Positions 2,231 to 9,943 of a DNA stretch of 24,299 bases are shown here, piece by piece. The number at the start of each line of letters is the position of its first letter. The stretch's first letter is position 1. The notes below the pieces were generated by a model. It was not told the DNA's origin. It was given only the letters and a program-made list of their open reading frames with translations, and did not search any database. Where the stretch lies: IMG/VR virus record IMGVR_UViG_3300032215_000544, positions 1 through 24,299 of that record. The stretch is one strand, 5' to 3'. A program made the translations under genes and the position numbers. The DNA comes from a virus.

Positions 2231-4753
2231 TCAGCTGTCAGGGAACTCAACGGTGGGCGGGGTGAAGGTGCTGGTGTAGCGGGCGACCCCTTTGGTGATG
2301 CGGAGGTCGTCTAAGTATCCATTCAAGTAATAGGAAGCACTATCTGCCACGCGCCCGATTACGCAATAGTTGACGCTAAGGTTGATAGAGAGTGTAAAGC
2401 TAGTGGCGTCCTGTGTTCCATCAATGTAAAACCTCCAAGTTGTGCCAGAACGAACCAAGGCAATGTGTGACCATTGATTTAATGGCACAGATGCAACGGT
2501 TGTGCCTCTGAAGCTCCCATTGCTGAAAAGAGTTAGATTCCTATTGGTATCCAGAATCCAGACGAAGGCATTGGTACGAACGCCGTTCCCGCTATCCAGT
2601 GTGTCAGAGTCGTAAATTGCGGAACCAGGTGATGCCGGCGCCGCGCTTATGTAGATCCAGGTTTCAACCGTAAAGTCGCCAGTCTCAAAGGCAAAGGCAG
2701 CGTTCGCGGGTGCGGTCAAGTAATCCCCGCTGCCATCAAGTGCCGCAGCCGCTCCGCCAAACTTGGATTGCGCTGTGCTGACTTGTGCGTTCCCGTAAGC
2801 AGTGATTGTGCGAGCTGCGCTGCTGTTGTCCGTGAATGTGGTCGATCCGTTGCTGCCATTCGCGTGCAGCAGCAGGGAGACATTAGAGAAGTAGGCGTCC
2901 GTGGCGACAGGGCCTCCATCAGGGAACGCAGCGGTGGGCAGGGTGAAAGTGTTGGTGTACCTGACCATTTTTGTGATTCGAACATCGTCAATGTATCCTT
3001 GGAAGAAACTGCCTGGTGCGTTCCAATTCTGTGCACCAATTAAAACTTTGCCGCTGGCATTGGTCAAAGAGACGCCGCTGTCGCTGCCAATCAAAGAACC
3101 GTTGAACCAAAGCTTAATTCCCGTTGAAGGGTCATTTGTCAAAGCTACGTGATGCCAAGTATTTGCGGGCACGTCCGAAAGCGGAGCAGTTACCACGGAA
3201 TTAGTGTTGTTTGTATAAATATAGAATCCAGTTTTGCGAACTTGAATGGTCCAAGAAAAGTTTGATCCATAAGTTGATTTATTGATAAGGTCTCGCCATG
3301 TAGTGTCATAGGTCGTCATGTAAAACCACAGCTCAATAGTGCAGGCAGTGTTGAGCTGTGCCCAGGTGCCGTCATCGATCATCAAGTAATCCCCGCTGCC
3401 ATCAAACGATGCAGAAGCGCCGCCCCACTTGGATTGCGTAGTGCTAACCTTTGCGTCGCCGTAAGCGGTGACAGTCTTGGGCGAAGCGCTGCTATCTGTA
3501 AATGTGGTGCTGTTGTTAGCACCGTCCATGTGAAGGAGTAGCTGGACACTGGAGAAGTTCGTATCTGCGATAACGCCACTTGCTGCACCACCAGAGAAAG
3601 CTGCTGTTGCATTCCAGTCGGCACCACTTACGGCCGTAATCTGCTCAGCCGTCACGGCGCCACCGCTCAGCGAAGCTGTTGCAGCCCAGGTGGCACCATT
3701 GAGGCTGACTTCTCCGGTATCGGCTGCGCCGCCTGTGAATGTGAGTGTGGCGATCCACGATGCTCCGATGTCGGCGACCCCGCCAGCGAAGGAGGCAGTG
3801 ACAGCCCAGGCAGCGCTGGAGGCCCCCGAGGATGAGACTGAGGCTGCTCCGCCTGTCAGGGAAGCGGTGGCGGTCCAGTTGATACCCGGCACAAACGCAT
3901 TGGGCACCGCTGCCGTCGCTTCTTGGAGCTCCAGGGTTCCGACCAGGCGGACTTGGACAGTGCAGATGCCGGGTGCGACGGAGTCCACGGTGGGTGGCTC
4001 CTGCCAGCGCCACATGATTGAGATAGTGTTGCGCTGGGCTAGCAGATCGCTAAGTACGCTGTCCCCTGGGTATGTCAGGTCTTTGGCAGCGCTGAATGTG
4101 TTCCAGTTGCTGTTGTCATCTGAGTATTGGAGGGTGAAACGCTTGAGGTAATAGGCTGAGCTCAATCCAGCAAGTTTTACGCCGTTGACCTGCTGAGCTG
4201 ACCCAAAGTCATAGCTAATCCATAAATCGTTTAAGGTGTTGTCAGACGTGCTGAACAGTGTGAACGCCGAGAGGTTGTTATCCCAAAGGTTCTGTAAAGG
4301 TTGGTAGTAGACGATTTTGTTAGTGTTTCCACTAACTGGTGTTCGTTTTGTATTGTTCAAGTAAAAAGCGAGCTCCTGAAGGCCTATCCAGGGGGCTTCG
4401 GTTGGAGTGGGGCCAACGACGTTGGCGATGCGCCAATAGCGGGCTGAAGGGAATGGTGCGCTTTCGTAATAGATACGAGCTGCCAGATCTTCGTCGTCGA
4501 TGCCCGCTACGACCTCGGGGGGAAGCGCCAGTGGGTGGAAGCTGGAGCGGCTCGAGCGGTAGCAGTTCAGCAAGGAGGCGCCCTGACTGTCTTGGACGTT
4601 GCGGAATGTCAGCGAGAGCTGGGCGCCGAAAGGCTTAGAGCCGAGCAGGCGAGGATAGTAAGAGCCGTCACGAGATCGTCCGTCTAGGACTGGGTAGCCA
4701 CCGAGTTCTAAGGATCGACTGCTGGGTTTGAGTGTGGGGAACGCTATGGTCAT
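2231..4753 (-). CDS. Tail adsorption protein: adaptor split by a discoidin domain, Trp/Gly repeats, two LamG domains
   Basis: 840 residues. Residues 1-90 form an adaptor that begins FPTLKPSSRS and runs to LPPEVVAGIDDE. It resumes at about 247-275 with MWRWQEPPTVDSVAPG, so an F5/8 type C (discoidin-like) domain at about 102-235 (starts RYWRIANV, contains VYYQPLQNLWDNNL) sits inside it. Residues 292-392 hold five short repeats of the form W-x-A-T-A-x-x-x-G-G-A. Two LamG/concanavalin-A-like domains follow at about 400-612 and 620-838. Each opens L-L-L-H-x-(D/N)-G, contains GGAxAxxDGSGDYL and ends GY-(I/L)-DD-(V/L)-RITK. Lectin-type folds at the tail tip suggest binding to host surface glycans. 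GAGGG 8 nt before the ATG is a fair Shine-Dalgarno. The LamG part is AT-richer than the rest. Confidence 0.85.
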   Translation of the reverse strand: MTIAFPTLKPSSRSLELGGYPVLDGRSRDGSYYPRLLGSKPFGAQLSLTFRNVQDSQGASLLNCYRSSRSSFHPLALPPEVVAGIDDEDLAARIYYESAPFPSARYWRIANVVGPTPTEAPWIGLQELAFYLNNTKRTPVSGNTNKIVYYQPLQNLWDNNLSAFTLFSTSDNTLNDLWISYDFGSAQQVNGVKLAGLSSAYYLKRFTLQYSDDNSNWNTFSAAKDLTYPGDSVLSDLLAQRNTISIMWRWQEPPTVDSVAPGICTVQVRLVGTLELQEATAAVPNAFVPGINWTATASLTGGAASVSSSGASSAAWAVTASFAGGVADIGASWIATLTFTGGAADTGEVSLNGATWAATASLSGGAVTAEQITAVSGADWNATAAFSGGAASGVIADTNFSSVQLLLHMDGANNSTTFTDSSASPKTVTAYGDAKVSTTQSKWGGASASFDGSGDYLMIDDGTWAQLNTACTIELWFYMTTYDTTWRDLINKSTYGSNFSWTIQVRKTGFYIYTNNTNSVVTAPLSDVPANTWHHVALTNDPSTGIKLWFNGSLIGSDSGVSLTNASGKVLIGAQNWNAPGSFFQGYIDDVRITKMVRYTNTFTLPTAAFPDGGPVATDAYFSNVSLLLHANGSNGSTTFTDNSSAARTITAYGNAQVSTAQSKFGGAAAALDGSGDYLTAPANAAFAFETGDFTVETWIYISAAPASPGSAIYDSDTLDSGNGVRTNAFVWILDTNRNLTLFSNGSFRGTTVASVPLNQWSHIALVRSGTTWRFYIDGTQDATSFTLSINLSVNYCVIGRVADSASYYLNGYLDDLRITKGVARYTSTFTPPTVEFPDS
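2716..2739. repeat. 24-bp direct repeat within the LamG duplication, copy 1
   Basis: Identical to 3382-3405. It encodes the DGSGDYL strand shared by the two LamG domains. The surrounding sequence is alignable but diverged, as expected of an older internal duplication. Confidence 0.8.
3382..3405. repeat. 24-bp direct repeat within the LamG duplication, copy 2
   Basis: Second copy of the repeat at 2716-2739, in the upstream LamG domain of the same protein. The spacing of 666 bp equals one LamG unit. Confidence 0.8.
4272..4313. repeat. 42-bp exact direct repeat, copy 1 (discoidin coding region)
   Basis: Identical over 42 bp to 5008-5049, 736 bp away. Both copies encode the YYQPLQNLWDNNL part of the discoidin domain in neighbouring genes. 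Flanking sequence is similar but not identical. Confidence 0.9.
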
Positions 4754-4763
4754 TGCAGTACCC

Positions 4764-5684
4764 TCAACCGATCCGAATGAGTGGGCTCAATGTGTTGTCC
4801 CCTGGGTACTGCAGATTTACGGCTGCGCCCAAGGTAATCCAGTTGACGTTGTCGACTGAATGCTGCAGTACAAAGCCTTGGGGATAAGATGCTGCGCTAT
4901 AGCCACCTAGCTTGATACCATTGATTTGTTGTGGGTAGCCCAAGTCGTTGCTGATCCATAAGTCATTCGCGGCATTGTCAGCTTTGCTGAACATCGCGAA
5001 TGAATACAGGTTGTTATCCCAAAGGTTCTGTAAAGGTTGGTAGTAGACGGGTTTGTTGGTGCTACCTGCAATCGGCGCTCGCTTGGTGTTGTCAAAGTAG
5101 AAGCCCAGTTCTTGCAACATCAGCCAGGGTTCACCAGTCGGGTTGATGACGTTGGCGATGCGCCAGTAACGGCGGTAGGGGGAGTATCCAGCTACGACGT
5201 AACAGGCGTAGCCGTTGACAAGCCCTGCTCCAGTGCCAGGAGAGGTAGAGCCGTAGGAGAGTTCGGGAGCAGTGAAGGTGGGGACGATGCGGCCCTGGAA
5301 AGAGATGGTGACGGAGGACAGGCCGGGGACGATGGACTCCAGGGAGGGCCTGCCCAGGAAAAACCAGGCGAGCGATGATCCCTCATTTCGGATGAGGGCG
5401 GCCATGCTGGTGCCGATTCCCGCAGTGATCGAAGAGGGAAGGGTGACTGGCTTGCGGCTGCCGTAGGCGCTGTCGTAGGCGGCGAGGATGCTTTCGGCGG
5501 CGGCATCGGAGATGTTGCTGAACTTGAGGCGAAGCTCGGGCTCGGTGGCCTTGGCGGCGAGGAGGCGACGGACGGTGAGGCCGGCCATTGTCTGGGCCGT
5601 GCTCATCGGGTGCTTCCCGTCGATGAAGCTACGGGAGCTGGGGACCAGTGAGGGGAAGGTGATGGTATCCGGCACGGGCGTCAT
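4764..5684 (-). CDS. Tail adsorption protein: intact adaptor domain plus C-terminal discoidin domain
   Basis: 306 residues, ATG start. Residues 1-135 are an uninterrupted adaptor (FPSLVPSSRSF at 10-20, LPSSITAGI at 82-90, WFFLGRPSLESIVPGLSSV at 107-125), homologous to the N-terminus of the next gene. Residues 170-300 are a discoidin-like (F5/8 type C) domain nearly collinear with that of the neighbour: RYWRIANV, LQEL-x-FY, YYQPLQNLWDNNL, NDLWIS, YPGD. Discoidin domains usually bind glycans or membranes, so a receptor-binding role is inferred. The protein ends right after the discoidin domain and has no LamG. It is separated from the hub gene by 54 nt without an evident Shine-Dalgarno and precedes the 840-residue protein by 10 nt. 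Confidence 0.8.
   Translation of the reverse strand: MTPVPDTITFPSLVPSSRSFIDGKHPMSTAQTMAGLTVRRLLAAKATEPELRLKFSNISDAAAESILAAYDSAYGSRKPVTLPSSITAGIGTSMAALIRNEGSSLAWFFLGRPSLESIVPGLSSVTISFQGRIVPTFTAPELSYGSTSPGTGAGLVNGYACYVVAGYSPYRRYWRIANVINPTGEPWLMLQELGFYFDNTKRAPIAGSTNKPVYYQPLQNLWDNNLYSFAMFSKADNAANDLWISNDLGYPQQINGIKLGGYSAASYPQGFVLQHSVDNVNWITLGAAVNLQYPGDNTLSPLIRIG
5008..5049. repeat. 42-bp exact direct repeat, copy 2 (discoidin coding region)
   Basis: Second copy of the repeat at 4272-4313, within the 306-residue adsorption protein. An 18-bp identical stretch (gacgttggcgatgcgcca) recurs near the start of the domain in both genes. Confidence 0.9.
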
Positions 5685-7945: not shown

Positions 7946-9943
7946 TCATGGCGTGAACGAAACGTTTCTCATGATCGTGGTGGGTGCAGCGTAATAACCG
8001 TCTGTACCGCCACCGAAGACCATGCGCCCATTGGCAGGTAAGACCAATCTTGTTGTTGTGATCATCAGTGTGCCGTTTTTGTAGACCTGAACTGTCATAT
8101 CATTACGGTTTGTGCCGGTGTAAACTATTTTCCAAGTGTATGTGCCGTAGATCGGGTCTTGTACGAAGTCCGTGCTGCCGTCCACTAAGTAAGTGGCACC
8201 GGTCCATGTCGTGGTTTTTTCGCCCGCTCGTTTGACGTAGATACCCTGAGTGGCTGTTTGGCCTACACCCCCGCCCCAAGGATTGAACGAGATAAAATGT
8301 GGGCTTGCAGTAGAGTTGTAGATTCCAATCGAGGCAAACCCGAGGCCGGAGCCTACGTAGGTTGAATCTGTTGCGTCGTAATCTAAAATACCGAAGCCCA
8401 CTGCGCCACCTATGGGACTGGCTGCGGGCATGTCTAGGGTAAATTGTATGGTGAACTTGTTGTAAGCTAGCGAAGGTGTTGCAATGTTGGAAACTATAGT
8501 TTCTGTCATGTTCCCAGACGCTTGCAGTAGCTGGGCCTCTACAATCTCTCCGCTGCTGTTTGTCGTTAAGGAGCCGTAAGGGCCGTTCTTTCTCCAGCTG
8601 TTATAGTACGAGTAGGAATATACGTTGGTGTCTTCGATGTCGGTGTTTTCGACGTCGCGGTTGGTGAGTATGCACAAGCAGCTTCCAGCTTTGTAGAGCT
8701 CTCCGATAATGAGGGCGTCGTCAGCGGCGCGTTGGCGTGCGGCGACAGCTGATGCGATGTCAGTACAACGTGCTTCGCCGTCTGCCGCGCTTACTTCATT
8801 GTCTGTGTTAGTCGAGTTAAATATGATTTTTGTATTGCCGTCGCTTTCGCGTTCAAGTTTGTAGGTGAAGGTGTCGCCTGGATTGACGCTGTCCCCTGCA
8901 CTGCTTGATAGAATCCCAGATCGACAGCTCCAGTGGTATTTGGCCTTCCAGGTGTCAGCGAGGGCCTGTGCGTCGTCGTCGCACAATGCTTTCATGTAGT
9001 TGCCGCTCTTGCCCGTCGGGACGATGCGCAGTACCACCGTCGGGCGGATCCGGGGGTTCACCCGGTAGCTCATGTTGTTGGGGATGTGGGAGAAGAGACC
9101 GAATTTGGTGGAGTTGGAGGGGCGAAAGGTGTAACAGAAGTCGGGCCTGAAGGTGTTGGCCTGACTGCGGATCTGGTAGACGTCGGCGGCGCCCCCGAGC
9201 TCGGAGTTGCCCGTGAGGTCTTTGGTGGCTAGGCGGCCAGTGAGACGGTTGCTGCCGGTCAGCCGGCCCCCCGAGGGCGTGAAGTAGATGGTCATGCGGC
9301 CCACCTCCTCGTTGGAGGTTGCGTCCTCGAAGCGGTAGGCCGAGAGGCTGTTGTCGCCGATGGCGAAGCCCCGTGGGTCCAGGGCGCCGATCTTGCCCTC
9401 CCCGAGCATGAAGATCGCCTTCAAGAACTGGTTGCCGTTTGTGCTGATCAGCTGGGACCAGAGGAGAGGGAGGTTGCAGCGGACGCCGCCGTAGGTGCCG
9501 GCCGGCCTCGGGGGGACAGCGCTCCAGGGGTCGCCTGGGTAAGCCGAGGCTGGTTGCGCGGGCAGGGACTGCCGGTTGGCGTAGATCAGGGGGATGGTGG
9601 TGCCCAGCGAGGCTGGTTGCTGGACCGAGTTGAAGCCCACACGGGGAGAGAAGCTGCTGTTCTCCGTGATGTTGTTGGCGTCTTTGGTTTTGTTGTCGAT
9701 GCCGCCCGTGCCAGCCTTTTGCTCGCGGGGCTTGAAGAATGAGGCGGCGATCGTCAGGCCGACCGAGAGGGCGAAGGAGGCAATCGCGATGATGGCGATC
9801 AGGCCCGCCTGGGGGACTGACAGGTCGATGCGGCTCTTCTGTTTCACCTCCGTCTTGAAACGGCGGTAGTCGTCCTCGGTGATGCCCAGGAGTTCGGCGA
9901 TGTGCCGGTCGTAGGGGAGGAGAGGCGGGGTGCGCTCAGACAT
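7946..9943 (-). CDS. N-terminal hub component with membrane-like segment and C-terminal concanavalin-like domain
   Basis: 665 residues from the ATG at 9943, which overlaps the previous stop by 8 nt (ATGTCTGA). I prefer it to an upstream in-frame start. Residues 46-70 form one hydrophobic segment (GLIAIIAIASFALSVGLTIA), as seen in tail-assembly proteins encoded next to J. Residues 98-130 (FSPRVGFNSVQQPASLG, IPLIYANR) and 150-200 (YGGVRC, LLWSQLIS, DPRGFAIGDN) match the N-terminal half of cyanophage J-like hub proteins. From about 480 to 665 the protein becomes a strand-rich, concanavalin/LamG-like domain that is AT-richer than the rest. It probably forms part of the tip and may bind glycan. 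A 41-nt gap separates it from the second hub gene. Confidence 0.75.
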   Translation of the reverse strand: MSERTPPLLPYDRHIAELLGITEDDYRRFKTEVKQKSRIDLSVPQAGLIAIIAIASFALSVGLTIAASFFKPREQKAGTGGIDNKTKDANNITENSSFSPRVGFNSVQQPASLGTTIPLIYANRQSLPAQPASAYPGDPWSAVPPRPAGTYGGVRCNLPLLWSQLISTNGNQFLKAIFMLGEGKIGALDPRGFAIGDNSLSAYRFEDATSNEEVGRMTIYFTPSGGRLTGSNRLTGRLATKDLTGNSELGGAADVYQIRSQANTFRPDFCYTFRPSNSTKFGLFSHIPNNMSYRVNPRIRPTVVLRIVPTGKSGNYMKALCDDDAQALADTWKAKYHWSCRSGILSSSAGDSVNPGDTFTYKLERESDGNTKIIFNSTNTDNEVSAADGEARCTDIASAVAARQRAADDALIIGELYKAGSCLCILTNRDVENTDIEDTNVYSYSYYNSWRKNGPYGSLTTNSSGEIVEAQLLQASGNMTETIVSNIATPSLAYNKFTIQFTLDMPAASPIGGAVGFGILDYDATDSTYVGSGLGFASIGIYNSTASPHFISFNPWGGGVGQTATQGIYVKRAGEKTTTWTGATYLVDGSTDFVQDPIYGTYTWKIVYTGTNRNDMTVQVYKNGTLMITTTRLVLPANGRMVFGGGTDGYYAAPTTIMRNVSFTP

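Follow-up and report, generated by a model that had tools for sequence, protein, structure and literature searches.

Two adjacent tail genes carry a discoidin domain in different positions

The DNA analysed here (the window) is a 24.3-kb record of an uncultured tailed virus of bacteria, with tail genes on the minus strand. Among them are two adjacent genes, X (306 aa, 4764-5684, minus) and Y (840 aa, 2231-4753, minus), both with open reading frames, and a gene for a 721-aa J-like tail protein lies directly upstream of the pair. In the product of X an uninterrupted adaptor domain precedes a discoidin domain (F5/8 type C), whereas in Y the discoidin domain breaks the adaptor (table 1). Both N-termini match phrog_15525, named "minor tail protein" (X residues 9-131, E 2e-12; Y residues 4-85, E 3e-6), and both proteins exceed the gathering cut-off of 28.2 bits for the Pfam family PF00754 (F5_F8_type_C), X with 32.8 bits (208-292) and Y with 40.4 bits (150-225). 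These matches bear out an earlier sequence-only reading, centred on a span (4049-5177) that takes in both discoidin domains, in which X was described as a continuous adaptor and then a discoidin domain. When X is compared with Y by BLASTP, the N parts of the adaptors are 39% identical over 84 aa, and the C parts give a short match (E 0.005).

Table 1. Positions of domains, linkers and shared blocks in the window
Feature	Position	Strand	Evidence
X continuous ring/adaptor domain (ring fold predicted), residues 8-134	5283..5663	-	phrog_15525 E 2e-12; HMM 69 bits; AF2 ring fold
X appended discoidin, residues 168-303	4776..5183	-	PF00754 32.8 bits; 6eon Z 10.6 (model); GC 0.51 vs adaptor 0.65
Y ring/adaptor first part (ring fold predicted), residues 1-94	4472..4753	-	phrog_15525 E 3e-6; HMM 52 bits; AF2
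Y inserted discoidin, residues 95-240 (146 aa)	4034..4471	-	missing in L046 orthologue; PF00754 40.4 bits; dN/dS 0.10 vs L004
Y ring/adaptor second part (ring fold predicted), residues 241-285	3899..4033	-	HMM 16.4 bits vs best shuffle 6.5; AF2
Y low-complexity linker repeats of NWTATASLTGGAA type, ~residues 286-396	3566..3898	-	sequence
Y two concanavalin-A-like (Laminin_G_3) domains, ~residues 397-838	2240..3565	-	PF13385 E 1e-40, two stretches
42-nt block in X discoidin, identical to 4272-4313 of Y discoidin	5008..5049	-	codon shuffles
42-nt block in Y discoidin, partner of 5008-5049	4272..4313	-	codon shuffles
C-terminal module of 675-aa protein	7949..8605	-	66% identity to C-terminus of gene X in L046

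Linker repeats of the NWTATASLTGGAA type also follow the adaptor in S-LBS1-like phages. The concanavalin-A-like (ConA-like) domains of Y were considered as Toxin_R_bind_N, and this assignment was rejected: it reaches 22.6 bits, below its cut-off of 23.8, where Laminin_G_3 scores 139.6 bits in the same region, and we take the resemblance to reflect a shared lectin-type fold only. A 146-aa tail-tube-like protein is encoded at 1787-2227 (PF16460 E 1e-5, below the cut-off); its gene lies downstream of Y and not upstream of the tape measure gene.

The adaptor of Y is interrupted and then resumes

Comparison with relatives confirms that Y contains the same adaptor as X, with a discoidin insert of 146 residues separating I94 from R241. 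The clearest evidence comes from L046, a contig retrieved with the neighbouring 139-aa protein as query, whose J-like protein is 81% identical to that of the window. Its Y orthologue is uninterrupted: it continues from ...LSSRI directly into RDGGAMVWRWLEPPSV... (junction SSRI/RDGG), with flanks intact and synteny kept, at the point where the window reads ...LAARI, then the 146 aa, then RNTISIMWRWQEPPTV.... This alignment sets the limits of the insert at Y95 and Q240 (window 4034-4471). Because the L046 flanks join directly at the same point, the insert in Y replaces nothing.

An HMM built on 71 uninterrupted adaptors of other phages, with the sequences of the window, L004 (a second contig, described below) and L046 excluded, was used to evaluate the segment that follows the discoidin. 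Residues 241-290 of Y score 16.4 bits, and the best of the shuffled versions of this segment (2000 made, 1585 scored) scores 6.5 bits. Similarly, the N part (residues 1-94) alone scores 52.2 bits and the N and C parts together 69.7 bits, whereas the N part joined to shuffled C parts reaches at best 57.6 bits in 1000 trials. A narrower HMM built only from S-LBS1-like adaptors is a weak test, giving 8.5 bits for the C half and 8.3 for the best shuffle. The conserved W of a WRY/WRW motif aligns to W248 of Y in all adaptor rows, and the interrupted loop, which is 10-22 residues long in 74 measured family members, comprises 163 residues in Y. Furthermore, 84 of 84 further diverse adaptors, aligned together with the two Y proteins, are continuous; phrog_15525 is matched by 75 of the 77 aligned adaptor-family members. 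The proposal that the adaptor of Y is cut by the discoidin and then resumed thus stands, as does the homology of the post-discoidin segment to the end of the X adaptor, with one correction: the adaptor starts again at R241 (RNTISIMWRW) and not, as originally given, six residues further on at M247.

Relatives with filled and empty sites

L004, a contig separate from the window, has both topologies as the window does, and the proteins of these genes are 76-83% identical between the two. In a more distant relative, L124, whose J-like protein is 48% identical to that of the window, the Y-type adaptor is continuous. A tree of 85 adaptors shows a Y group and an X group, each containing the window, L004, L046 and L124 (supports 98/85 and 96/69), with long branches for L124. 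Because each group holds all four phages, the duplication that produced X and Y predates the insert. Moreover, since L046, L124 and the 84 other adaptors are uninterrupted, insertion in the lineage of the window and L004 is the simplest history, and on this simplest reading the insert would have been gained in their common ancestor. The modular evolution of the tail that had been read from the window is therefore visible in further genomes, with L046 as the empty-site relative and L004 as a second phage with two topologies.

The Laminin_G_3 repeats of Y number two in the window and in L004 and one in L046, which indicates gain or loss of a repeat.

Predicted fold of the adaptors

The X adaptor is predicted by AF2 to adopt a ring fold with pLDDT mostly 75-96. 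In the Y model, residues 1-90 (pLDDT mostly 73-98) and residues 251-270 (~97) are joined as one domain, with the discoidin modelled at only ~55-66 pLDDT. Thus, the two halves of Y are predicted to fold back into a single ring domain, with the discoidin bulging from one loop. The top solved match of the modelled split domain is T5 pb9 (Z 9.4, rmsd 2.3 Å, 90 residues), and the model also matches the Dit of roseophage R4C (Z 7.8). The X adaptor model (7-134) matches lambda gpM (Z 8.9) as well as tail-tip proteins of T1 and T5, and the X discoidin model matches 6eon with Z 10.6. No sequence relatives of the adaptors were found in the PDB, and no Dit-type Pfam family matched them at E 0.1; phrog_15525 is the sole named family.

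Based on these models, the general label "adaptor" can be refined to a predicted tail-tip ring (Dit/gpM-like) fold. Dit genes usually sit between the genes for the tape measure and the hub (Tal/J), and the lambda gpM gene sits just after the tape measure gene, whereas X and Y come after the J-like 721-aa gene. Because this position is unlike that of the usual Dit, we term X and Y ring-type by fold only.

Divergence and origin of the discoidin module

The discoidins of X and Y are 61% identical over 137 aa (BLASTP). No discoidin relative as close as this was found outside the window and L004 in viral_contigs, genome_contigs and the phage collection, and scans of genome_contigs with P0001 and with the discoidin returned no relatives. 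The GC content of the window discoidins is 0.49-0.51, against 0.62-0.65 in the surrounding adaptors. Between the window and L004 the discoidins have dN/dS values of 0.10-0.26 (0.10 for the Y insert) and so evolve under purifying selection. The X and Y copies are old relative to each other, with dS of 1.5-2.4. Between the two phages, discoidin dS is 0.64 (X) and 1.83 (Y), and that of the flanking adaptors is 0.32 (X) and 0.42-0.73 (Y). Because silent divergence is greater in the discoidins than in their flanks, it is likely that alleles of the module continue to be exchanged. The two window discoidins additionally share an identical block of 42 nt, which lies in an alignment of 67% identity and was reached by 0 of 20000 codon shuffles. 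This block is confined to the window; identical runs in the other discoidin pairs (X and Y of the window and L004) do not exceed 27 nt. It looks like a short conversion tract. By eye, no direct repeats of the flanks are seen at the ends of the insert, and for this reason we do not propose a mobile-element mechanism.

Taken together, the exclusive similarity of the two discoidins and the one short patch suggest that the module was probably copied between the X and Y genes. It is also conceivable that X and Y took up their discoidins independently of each other, both from a common outside reservoir of related modules low in GC. Discoidins do exist as separate small genes in three other contigs (L085, L109 and L115), and the high discoidin dS noted above has the appearance of modules that keep swapping; however, the three collections hold no outside relative near 61% identity, the same two phages carry both copies, and the 42-nt patch unites X with Y. 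We therefore regard separate uptake as unlikely, although by no means far-fetched. The sequence-only reading had the module moving directly from one gene to the other: its presence in two positions of paralogous adaptors is confirmed, whereas a direct move between the two genes, in either direction, is only probable, with two acquisitions from one outside source as the less likely rival, and receptor binding by the module is a putative role. With respect to timing, an old insert in Y that was cleanly lost in L046, L124 and the other adaptors would leave the same empty site as one that never received it. Yet this history needs at least two independent, exact losses in the Y group (L046 Y and L124 Y), and all other aligned family members are without the insert, so that we consider it improbable.

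The structure of Y itself could be questioned if the protein were a truncated adaptor joined to a discoidin, with a later segment that resembles an adaptor by chance. The C segment is indeed short and its pairwise BLAST E value is only 0.005, but this reading is refuted by the score against a profile that lacks the window, L004 and L046, by the L046 orthologue, in which the same segment directly follows the N part, and by the AF2 model, which builds one domain from both halves; chance resemblance is very improbable. An assembly or frame error is harder still to credit. Although the record is single and metagenome-derived, the same arrangement recurs in the separate contig L004 at 76-83% protein identity, the frames are open and dN/dS is well below 1.

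Proposed history and function

We propose that X and Y are ancient duplicates built on a small siphophage domain of the tail-tip-ring fold (Dit/gpM type). In the ancestor of the window and L004, X would have received a low-GC discoidin as an in-frame C-terminal addition, and a discoidin would have been spliced without loss into a surface loop of Y, at I94/R241, immediately ahead of the strand with which the ring fold is completed. The two discoidins would probably derive from copying within one phage lineage. The ring domain most likely fixes the proteins in the tail tip, with the discoidin and ConA-like modules facing outward, where they may reach and bind sugars of the host surface and so help first reversible attachment. 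We infer this role in adhesion from the class to which the domains belong and from evolved Dits, whose inserts aid adsorption (PMC10688798). As a whole, this explanation, from ring-fold duplicates to an outward adhesion role, appears probable to us. The host is probably a cyanobacterium, judging only from the distant relatives S-LBS1, S-CBS1 and S-CBS3.

Comparison with known tail proteins

It is well documented that distal tail proteins can carry sugar-binding inserts within their sequence. Evolved Dits occur in lactococcal, streptococcal and Lactobacillus siphophages, where the distal tail protein is split by a carbohydrate-binding domain lying inside it (PMC7291167, PMC10688798); most of these inserts are BppA-like CBMs placed in galectin-domain loops (PMC7291167, PMC10688798), and they vary among related phages and were found to alter or aid adsorption (PMC10688798). 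Like evolved Dits, Y is a tail protein split by an internal insert, and both flanks align to a full uninterrupted protein, as seen with the L046 orthologue and the 71-member HMM. Unlike in evolved Dits, the discoidin of Y lies inside the ring domain itself and not in a galectin loop, and the paralogue next to it, X, has a related discoidin at its end; no galectin domain is seen in the X and Y models.

The Dits of T5 (pb9), RcGTA and roseophage R4C consist of a ring or core and an outward domain that is thought to bind sugars (PMC10276861, PMC10038345), which is an OB-fold in T5 (RcGTA is considered homologous) and a T7-fibre-like barrel in R4C (PMC10276861, PMC10038345). Y resembles them in that its predicted ring domain bears an extra domain, and pb9 is its top structural match, but the extra domain of Y is a discoidin. 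The ring domain of X is similarly matched by lambda gpM, which is undecorated and corresponds to the uninterrupted state, although no sequence relation to X was detected. The Synechococcus siphophages S-LBS1, S-CBS1 and S-CBS3 also have phrog_15525 adaptors, with two paralogues per phage and with ConA-like C-terminal modules in some relatives. Unlike in the window, all adaptors of that group are continuous, and discoidins, where found, are separate genes.

As far as we found, three features are new: the nested module is a discoidin, the insert resides in the ring-type minor tail protein of this phage group, and a nested and appended pair occurs together with an empty-site relative. Close, syntenic genomes here show one module inserted, appended and absent, which is more telling than an insertion in a single protein, and they show a loop of a ring-type tail domain to be tolerant of a 146-residue insert. 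The uninterrupted L046 relative indicates that such modules slot in and out over evolution, as is already known in other phages. The locus offers a small case for studying the spread of adhesion modules among environmental siphophages, which are probably cyanobacterial.

Other mobile modules in the phage group

A further low-GC module appears in two positions. The 675-aa protein of the window ends in a stretch of 218 residues that shares 66% identity with the C-terminus of X in L046 (E 8e-97; L046:4499-5134), and the L046 counterpart of the 675-aa protein stops at 443 aa, without this module. Its GC content is 0.50 in the 675-aa protein and 0.47 in L046 X, and it matches no Pfam family above the cut-off. 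Several adaptor-family members also end in ConA-like (Laminin_G_3) modules. We tentatively raise the idea, which we hold to be doubtful, that the 675-aa protein, X, Y and the small genes between adaptors form an exchange system for low-GC adhesion modules. If so, recombination inside a genome and from one genome to another would move modules among gene termini and a single permissive loop of the ring domain, with one module displayed at several sites of one tail tip.

F5/8 type C domains are encoded as separate small genes beside adaptors at L085:3778-4305, L109:2505-3029 and L115:1480-2046. At L124:6675-11702, a single frame of 1676 aa unites the 675-aa protein with the J-like 721-aa protein and ends in two ConA-like-looking repeats.
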